Source: Sphingomonas edaphi
Lineage (GTDB): Bacteria; Pseudomonadota; Alphaproteobacteria; Sphingomonadales; Sphingomonadaceae
Length of the DNA stretch: 64,000 nucleotides
Assembly: GCF_003583725.1 (NCBI RefSeq)
Contig: NZ_QXTF01000005.1
Span: 1 to 64,000 of the forward strand
Direction of reading: 5' to 3'
Shown: positions 37,902 to 39,529 of the stretch, piece after piece
Position numbering within the stretch: the first letter of the stretch is position 1
How the letters are laid out: every line of letters starts with the position of its first letter
Notes under the pieces: model-generated
Database searches by the model: none
What the model saw: only the letters and a program-made list of their open reading frames with translations
What the model was told of the DNA's origin: nothing
Made by a program: the position numbers and the translations under genes

Positions 37902-37923
37902 CGAACGATCCTTTCGGACAAAG

Positions 37924-37954
37924 AAAAACCCCGCCGAAGCGAGGCTTGGCGGGG
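37924..37954 (-). terminator. Intrinsic terminator in the phhA leader (attenuator 3:4 hairpin)
   Basis: On the minus strand CCCCGCCAAGC pairs with GCTTCGGCGGGG around a short CTC loop, with one bulged base. The stem is followed directly by TTTTTC. The T-run ends 22 bases before the phhA ATG and just before its ribosome binding site. A terminator inside the 5' leader, after a short ORF, is the mark of attenuation rather than of operon end. Confidence 0.88.
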
Positions 37955-37986
37955 CAGTGGTTCCCTAAAGCTGGACGTAACTGGCC

Positions 37987-38076
37987 TCAGCAGGTCCCCA
38001 CCGCGTATCGATAATAGGGGGCCGCAGCCGAACGTAGCGTCGGCGAAACACGAGAAAGGGCGGTTGGGGCAATCAT
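37987..38076 (-). CDS. phhA leader peptide with Tyr-Tyr-Arg-Tyr regulatory codons
   Basis: The ORF starts at ATG 38076, sharing one base with the phhB stop (TAATG), and ends at TGA 37987, giving 29 residues. AGGGGA sits six bases before the ATG, a good ribosome binding site formed by the last phhB codons. The peptide reads MIAPTALSRVSP, then TLRSAAAP, then YYRYAVGTC. The codons TAT TAT CGA TAC put three tyrosines within four codons, just before a segment that can pair with the terminator arm. By analogy with leaders of other amino acid operons, ribosomes stalling here would report scarce tyrosyl-tRNA. It is too short for routine gene calling. Confidence 0.82.
   Translation of the reverse strand: MIAPTALSRVSPTLRSAAAPYYRYAVGTC
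37996..38023 (-). promoter_or_regulatory. Attenuator pairing segments 1 and 2 within the phhA leader
   Basis: Segment 1, GGCCCCC (38017-38023), lies just before the Tyr codons. Segment 2, GGTGGGG (37996-38002), lies just after them. Segment 2 can pair with segment 1, with a bulge, or with CCCCGCC, the 5' arm of the terminator (GGTGGGG to CCCCGCC, one G-U pair). A ribosome stalled on the Tyr codons covers segment 1 and frees segment 2 to break the terminator. A ribosome at the leader stop covers segment 2 and lets the terminator form. The pairings are read by eye, not computed. Confidence 0.7.
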
Positions 38077-38366
38077 TACGCTTCCCCTATTCCACCCGCC
38101 GCCTGAACGCCAGATGGCCGCGCCAGCCGGTCGATGACCTCGGCTAGCGCCGTATCGCGACCGGTGACCCCGTCAGCGTCATGCGTGGTCAGCCGGAAAT
38201 GGAGGCGATTCCAGGCGCTGGTGAATTCCGGGTGATGGTCGGCTTTCTCAGCATGGAGCGCGACGCGCGTGAGAAAGGCGAACGCTTCGGAAAAATCCTT
38301 GAAACGGAACGATTTTTCGATCGCCTTGCCGTCGTCGCTGGTCGTCCAGCCGTCGGGAATGTCCAT
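38076..38366 (-). CDS. phhB: 4a-hydroxytetrahydrobiopterin dehydratase (pterin-4a-carbinolamine dehydratase)
   Basis: The 96-residue protein dehydrates the carbinolamine formed by PhhA so that the pterin cofactor can be reduced again. The conserved core HAEKADHHPEF and the later TTHDADGVTGRD are present, and the length is normal. The stop codon TAA overlaps the leader ATG by one base, and its last codons provide the leader's ribosome binding site. phhB is thus upstream of the attenuator and escapes that control. It is divergent from hppD, with 68 bases between the starts. Confidence 0.95.
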   Translation of the reverse strand: MDIPDGWTTSDDGKAIEKSFRFKDFSEAFAFLTRVALHAEKADHHPEFTSAWNRLHFRLTTHDADGVTGRDTALAEVIDRLARPSGVQAAGGIGEA

Positions 38367-38434: not shown

Positions 38435-39529
38435 ATGGCCACCGCCGCCCCTTCCATCGAGCTCGGCCCGTTGGGCCTCGAGAATCCGATGGGCACCGAC
38501 GGTTTCGAATTCGTCGAATATGCCGCGCCCGATCCAGAGCTTCTGCGCTCGCTTTTCGCCAAGATGGGCTTCCCGGCCGTCGCGAAGCACAAGCGGAAGG
38601 ACGTCACCCTTCATCGCCAAGGCGACATCAACTTCATCATCAACGCGGAAAAAGACAGCTTTGCCGAGCAGTTCGCCAAGGATCATGGTCCGTGCGCCTG
38701 CGCGATGGCCTTCCGGGTGAAGGACGCCAGGGCCGCCCATGCCCGCGCGCTCGAACTCGGCGCAACCGACGTGAAAGGAGATGTCGCGGAAGGCGAGCTC
38801 GACATTCCGGCGATCGAGGGCATCGGCGGCTCCCGCCTCTATTTCGTAGACCGCTACGGTCACAAGGGCACCATCTACGATGTCGATTTCGACTTTCTGC
38901 CCGATGCGAATGAACAGGAGGCAAGCCACGCCAGCCACCTCACCTATCTCGATCACCTGACCCACAACGTGAATCGCGGGCGGATGAGCTTCTGGGCCGA
39001 GTTTTATGAGCGTCTCTTCAACTTCAAGGAAATCCGCTACTTCGACATCGAAGGAAAGGTCACCGGCCTCTTCTCCAAGGCAATGACGTCGCCCTGCGGC
39101 AAGATCCGGATTCCCTTAAACGAGAGTCAAGACGACAAAAGTCAGATCGAGGAATTCCTGCGCGAATATAAGGGCGAAGGCATCCAGCACATCGCGCTCG
39201 GCAGTGACGACATCTACAAGACGGTCGATATCCTGCGTGATCGTGGCATTCCGTTCCAGGACACGCCCGACACTTATTACGAACTGGTCGACGAGCGGGT
39301 GAAGGGCCATGGCGAGCCGACCGCCGAACTCGAAAAGCGCCGCATCCTGATCGACGGTGCGCCTACCGAGGGTCAAGGCCTGCTGCTGCAGATTTTCACC
39401 CAGAACGTGATCGGCCCGATCTTCTTCGAAATCATCCAGCGCAAGGGCAACGAAGGATTCGGCGAAGGCAATTTCAAGGCGCTGTTCGAAAGCATCGAGC
39501 TCGACCAGATGCGTCGAGGGGTCATTTGA
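38435..39529 (+). CDS. hppD: 4-hydroxyphenylpyruvate dioxygenase
   Basis: This non-heme iron enzyme converts 4-hydroxyphenylpyruvate to homogentisate, the committed step of tyrosine breakdown. The 364-residue length is normal with two VOC-type halves. The iron ligands are H174 (YLDHLTHNV), H252 (GIQHIALGSDD) and E332 (FFEIIQRKG). AAAGGAGA precedes the ATG. It is divergent from phhB; homogentisate dioxygenase is not in the window. Confidence 0.97.
   Translation: MATAAPSIELGPLGLENPMGTDGFEFVEYAAPDPELLRSLFAKMGFPAVAKHKRKDVTLHRQGDINFIINAEKDSFAEQFAKDHGPCACAMAFRVKDARAAHARALELGATDVKGDVAEGELDIPAIEGIGGSRLYFVDRYGHKGTIYDVDFDFLPDANEQEASHASHLTYLDHLTHNVNRGRMSFWAEFYERLFNFKEIRYFDIEGKVTGLFSKAMTSPCGKIRIPLNESQDDKSQIEEFLREYKGEGIQHIALGSDDIYKTVDILRDRGIPFQDTPDTYYELVDERVKGHGEPTAELEKRRILIDGAPTEGQGLLLQIFTQNVIGPIFFEIIQRKGNEGFGEGNFKALFESIELDQMRRGVI

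Follow-up and report, generated by a model that had tools for sequence, protein, structure and literature searches.

A predicted tyrosine-sensing attenuator in front of the phenylalanine hydroxylase gene of Sphingomonas edaphi and of relatives that mostly lack TyrA

Analysis of a 64-kb stretch of the Sphingomonas edaphi genome (positions 1–64,000 of contig NZ_QXTF01000005.1, hereafter the window) indicates that the phenylalanine 4-hydroxylase gene phhA is very likely controlled by a ribosome-mediated transcription attenuator, which would adjust its expression to how much charged tyrosyl-tRNA is available. Ribosome-mediated attenuation is a classical mechanism, and here a cluster of Tyr codons lies before the gene for a tyrosine-making enzyme in about 90 predicted leader ORFs. 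A preliminary description of the locus had already read it as an attenuator; this turned out to be largely right, with control codons, stop position, terminator, and the pairing of segments 2 and 3 conserved or covarying in about 90 loci.

In the proposed mechanism, the transcript would begin at the leader ATG or slightly upstream of it, with the ribosome trailing RNA polymerase. When Tyr-tRNA is scarce, the ribosome is expected to stall when its A site holds the first or the second Tyr codon, with its front edge just before segment 2. This segment could then pair with segment 3, located on the 5′ side of the terminator foot, and hinder terminator formation, so that phhA would be transcribed. 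With ample Tyr-tRNA, the ribosome would reach the stop codon and cover segment 2, the terminator would form, and transcription would end before phhA. The direction of this response, with scarce tyrosine switching phhA on, is deduced from sequence. Lacking prephenate/arogenate dehydrogenase, the cell would use phhA to obtain its tyrosine from phenylalanine.

A leader ORF with Tyr codons and a terminator lie between phhB and phhA

On the minus strand of the window, phhB, encoding pterin-4a-carbinolamine dehydratase (38366–38076; PF01329, E 6.4e-27), is followed by the leader ORF (38076–37987), the terminator (37954–37924), and the putatively regulated phhA (37901–37098; PF00351, E 1.6e-39). The HPPD gene hppD (PF14696) is located divergently to phhB-phhA at 38435. 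The leader ORF comprises 29 codons, translates to MIAPTALSRVSPTLRSAAAPYYRYAVGTC with the C-terminal end AAAPYYRYAVGTC before the stop, and begins with an ATG that overlaps the phhB stop codon (TAATG). Its control codons TAT TAT CGA TAC (Tyr Tyr Arg Tyr; 38005–38016) are preceded by segment 1, GGCCCCC (38023–38017), and followed by segment 2, GCGGTGG (37998–38004), the putative 5′ arm of the antiterminator, which extends to GGTGGGG (38002–37996). The putative 3′ arm, segment 3 (CCACTGC; 37954–37960), abuts and overlaps the foot of the terminator. The latter, CCCCGCCAAGCCTCGCTTCGGCGGGGTTTTT, consists of a CCCCGCC...GGCGGGG stem and a U tract, folds with −20.8 kcal/mol (z −4.25), and ends 22 nt before the phhA start, which is preceded by a likely ribosome binding site, AAAGGA (37909–37914). 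The ORF, its Tyr codons, GGCCCCC before and GGTGGGG after them, and the distance of the terminator to phhA are all as given in the preliminary description. In an Rfam scan of the window, only two tRNAs reached the gathering score, and no T-box, riboswitch, or other family was found.

The leader is conserved in three related genera

Genes for phhA were sought in 71 genomes of the window's genus (g1), 26 of g68, 2 of g59, and 250 of the family, and leaders were identified by reading the DNA upstream of phhA. A leader with a terminator precedes phhA in 87 of the 89 phhA-bearing genomes of these three related genera, which are Sphingomicrobium- and Sphingosinicella-like (64/65 in g1, 21/22 in g68, where the remaining one is masked by N, and 2/2 in g59), and named Sphingosinicella-type loci also carry it. 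The typical layout is YYY, 5–8 codons, stop codon, ∼31 nt, terminator, and phhA. A covariance model built from the leaders gave matches in 3 of the 94 genera of the family, with E up to 1e-6, and detected no phhA leader in the remaining ones. In the phhA tree, a supported clade unites the 37 genes from other genera, none of which has a leader; outside this clade, a leader is truly absent only from L121 (in G007) and L030 (a second copy in G010). The simplest reading is one gain followed by two losses, with the root of the tree not fixed.

Together, 87 leaders encode 247 Tyr residues compared to 38 Phe and 15 Trp. In g1, Tyr is specified by codons −10 to −8 relative to the stop in 66–84% of 62 leaders, and in g68 by codons −12 to −9 in 56–84% of the leaders, compared to a Tyr share of 1.9% in the genes of the window. 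TAT is the dominant codon and TAC is also used, the leader of one relative contains five consecutive TAT, and Tyr is retained at shifting positions among the leaders. The spacing is also constrained: 83 of 87 leaders have 27–36 nt between the first Tyr codon and the stop, and 75 of 87 have 29–34 nt between the stop and the terminator. If the ribosome is taken to reach 12 nt beyond its A site, its front edge falls just short of segment 2 when it stands on the first Tyr codon, and segment 2 is covered when it stands at the stop codon.

An antiterminator helix covaries within subgroups

RNAalifold applied to a mixed alignment returned the terminator alone, because the register of the antiterminator differs between subgroups, and the helix was therefore analyzed on subgroup alignments. 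In the window's subgroup (alignment A5), GCGGTGG pairs with CCACCGC, CCATCGC, or CCACTGC in 95.7% of cells, and both sides change in GC/GU/AU and UA/UG/CG series. In g68 (alignment A2), the partner of segment 2 (CCGGACGGG or CCGGGCGGG) is the 5′ arm of the terminator itself (CCCGTCCGG or CCCGCCCGG), with 90.3% of cells paired and GC/GU/AU changes, and group b shows pairings of GAGGTTGG with CCAACCTC and of GGAGGCTGG with CCAGCCTCC. The native pairing of segments 2 and 3 is stronger than the species-swapped one, and in both groups none of 5000 permutations was as good. The terminator stem and its U tract are conserved across the relatives.

An alignment of relatives, as suggested in the preliminary description, thus bore out the Tyr codons, the terminator, and the 2:3 pairing. 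The conserved form of the latter is the helix GCGGTGG:CCACTGC at the terminator foot, and not only the GGTGGGG:CCCCGCC pairing initially proposed. The postulated 1:2 pairing GGCCCCC:GGTGGGG did not hold up, as no conserved pairing of segments 1 and 2 was found in the alignment of the window's subgroup. Many g68 leaders contain a small hairpin, CCGCCCGGGCGG, which is a candidate for a protective 1:2 pairing.

The antiterminator overlaps the terminator arm fully in g68; in much of g1, and also in the window, it abuts the terminator or shares 1–2 nt with it. In ∼23 group b sequences the helix merely abuts the terminator, so that mutual exclusion is not evident in these. Block by an abutting helix in much of g1 would perhaps be steric, in the RNA exit channel, and is the weakest step that we infer.

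In most leaders outside the window's subgroup, a segment around and after the leader stop, CTGACGCGCG (columns 48–58 of alignment A1), is strongly conserved; no pairing partner was found for it. Because termination is slow in a UGAC context, the ribosome might be kept on segment 2.

The position of the ribosome changes the predicted fold

Folding was compared for a ribosome at the first Tyr codon and at the stop codon, with E. coli trpL as control. The segment-3 region was paired upstream with 0.69 at the first Tyr codon versus 0.04 at the stop. Invasion of the terminator 5′ arm amounted to 0.74 versus 0.18 in g68 and 0.44 versus 0.19 in g1; the g68 leaders thus behave similarly to trpL, for which values of 0.71 (stalled) and 0.01 (stop) were obtained. 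For the window itself, arm invasion differed weakly and ambiguously between ribosome positions (first Tyr codon, 0.36; second Tyr codon, 0.73; stop, 0.38), and a clear contrast was obtained only for the flanking segment 3 (0.66 versus 0.00). In every ribosome state, the terminator is the favored structure at equilibrium, as it also is in the trpL control. Folding, also suggested at the outset, shows a segment 3 that switches with ribosome position, but gives little contrast for arm invasion in the window.

TnaC senses tryptophan in the ribosome tunnel, and the leader peptide might similarly act by nascent-peptide arrest, with a conserved C-terminal end sensing free tyrosine or phenylalanine in the tunnel and the codons being incidental. 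C-terminal residues indeed look conserved within subgroups (PDEVGIG, RAVETG, RARAGPI). However, the peptide ends vary between subgroups, and the RNA pairing they encode is kept by compensatory changes; the shifting Tyr positions, the use of both Tyr codons, and the run of five TAT in one relative also argue against arrest. Because the RNA pairing rather than the peptide is retained, we judge such a sensor very unlikely.

The leader accompanies the loss of TyrA

TyrA (PF02153) is missing in 45 of the 48 leader genomes tested, including that of the window, and present in 24 of the 27 other phhA-bearing genomes (Fisher p 3e-13, with genomes counted as independent despite their kinship); three leader genomes do have TyrA. 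The TyrA model was positive in 14 of 14 control genomes. A sub-threshold match in the window's genome (20 bits) was rejected, as it corresponds to ketol-acid reductoisomerase and not to TyrA. Since most leader genomes, like that of the window, are without TyrA, PhhA is probably their sole route to tyrosine. In this they resemble Dyella japonica and Legionella pneumophila, bacteria without TyrA for which the accessible text of PMC7311316 gives genetic support for phenylalanine hydroxylase as a tyrosine biosynthesis route; that text does not mention attenuation as its regulation. PheA is also absent from the window's genome, as in most tested genomes of the genus, and the organism therefore probably imports phenylalanine.

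Three relatives, two of which also have aroE at this place, carry phhA behind aroA-pheA-aroC-aroB, and the leader directly precedes phhA. In G007, which has TyrA, phhA abuts aroE without a leader. The loci with phhA at the end of an aroA-pheA-aroC-aroB(-aroE) cluster are L254 (G263), L255 (G351), L256 (G004), and L257 (G007), and their gene order runs from shikimate to tyrosine, with phenylalanine hydroxylase as the last step.

The presence of hppD beside phhA suggests a catabolic role as well. The sense of the switch could be reversed, with phhA as a catabolic gene whose expression rises with tyrosine and the helix favoring termination upon stalling. Such a reversal would suit the position of phhA beside phhB and the divergent hppD, as well as the ability of the group b helix to coexist with the terminator. 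However, the g68 helix takes up the 5′ arm of the terminator (90.3% paired), and therefore stalling must open the gene; moreover, TyrA is absent from nearly all leader genomes and phhA occurs in a shikimate cluster. We thus give this alternative only a slim chance. That a strong but ordinary phhB/phhA terminator happens to follow a small ORF has a negligible probability and is ruled out by conservation, as the leader precedes phhA with or without an adjacent phhB, and a scan for a Tyr-rich ORF followed by a terminator gave exactly one match in the 64-kb window, the phhA leader, and none in 200 Markov-1 sequences of 64 kb.

The tyrosine-sensing attenuator proposed here would tie a regulatory RNA to a metabolic change, the loss of TyrA, and would mark phhA as biosynthetic in leader-bearing bacteria, which helps to predict auxotrophies. 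In G023, G301, G309, G093, and G168, searches detected no phhA and no TyrA, and these are predicted to be tyrosine auxotrophs.

Promoter motifs point to a leaderless transcript

A candidate −35 element, CTGGCG (38108–38113, minus strand, within CTGGCGTTCAG), is a consensus-type match in the 3′ end of phhB, and a candidate −10 element, AATAGG (38086–38091, minus strand), lies 9 nt 5′ of the leader ATG, so that the promoter of the window would sit inside the end of phhB. Related motifs support this placement: GTTCA is found 29–33 nt before the leader ATG in 38 of 62 g1 relatives and TTGAC 35–38 nt before it in 25 of 25 g68 leaders, and the distance from the −10 element to the ATG is mostly 6–9 nt in both genera. 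As a group, the leaders show no Shine-Dalgarno signal (mean −2.92, shuffled −2.72), while such a signal is present at the phhA starts (−5.70). The sequence AGGGGA, previously regarded as a good ribosome binding site of the leader ORF, does exist, with a duplex energy of −6.4, but it is not a conserved part of the leaders and overlaps the likely −10 element. The −35 and −10 motifs at leaderless distance and the lack of a group Shine-Dalgarno signal point to a transcript that is probably leaderless, or nearly so, with its 5′ end at the start of the ORF. Given the overlap of the leader ATG with the phhB stop, the leader ORF could also be translated from transcripts that read through from phhB.

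Relation to known attenuators and further leaders

Like the E. coli trpL and pheA leaders, the phhA leader has a short ORF with control codons, and its predicted 2:3 antiterminator would likewise oppose a 3:4 terminator; unlike these, it has Tyr codons and phenylalanine hydroxylase as target, is probably leaderless, and in the window's subgroup has an antiterminator that mostly abuts the terminator. A leaderless attenuator is known from another alphaproteobacterium, Sinorhizobium meliloti, where the trpL RNA starts at the leader ATG and yields the sRNA rnTrpL and the peptide peTrpL (PMC7298713). The RNA start of the phhA leader at the ATG is so far a candidate from sequence, and S. meliloti trpL differs in its Trp codons, its target trpE(G), and its known action in trans. 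The aroR leader before aroF of Corynebacterium glutamicum also contains a Tyr codon, in a Phe-Tyr-Phe motif, but is reported to respond to Phe and not to Tyr (Neshat et al. 2014, reviewed in PMC11802643); it precedes another gene in another phylum, and the phhA leaders are dominated by Tyr. Attenuators have also been predicted before tyrA operons, listed without codon analysis in the accessible part of PMC1173090.

In the open papers searched, no phhA attenuator and no tyrosine-controlled leader was found, in agreement with the statement in the preliminary description that none was known for phenylalanine hydroxylase. By this literature, with priority uncertain, no earlier attenuator seems to have been described for this enzyme, and none that has tyrosine itself as the signal. 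A more comprehensive scenario is conceivable but doubtful as a whole: a TyrA-less lineage would have turned a catabolic phenylalanine hydroxylase into a tyrosine-making enzyme under a purely tyrosine-sensing leaderless attenuator, part of the lineage having an antiterminator that acts by abutting the terminator foot instead of pairing with its arm, and the transcript released by termination, or its peptide, might function in trans in the manner of the sRNA rnTrpL and of peTrpL.

The covariance model of the phhA leaders also finds classical Thr/Ile and Trp leaders. Thr/Ile-rich leaders (e.g., MMTTIITITTRFRGASG) with terminators occur at L143 (G007), L144 (G338), L148 (G298), L158 (G330), L159 (G335), and L160 (G263), in front of a gene that starts with an amino-acid-kinase domain and probably encodes aspartokinase-homoserine dehydrogenase; these are apparent Thr/Ile attenuators in the same bacteria. 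Trp leaders (e.g., WWRALNLAARWRD) with terminators precede an anthranilate phosphoribosyltransferase (trpD-like) gene at L145 (G023), L149 (G004), L151 (G330), L152 (G015), L156 (G022), and L157 (G020). At L150 (G017), a leader, MLRPAALTVLAATWWFSVHGGVPVER, and a terminator lie before a DAHP synthase gene and represent a probable Trp attenuator of the entry into the shikimate pathway.
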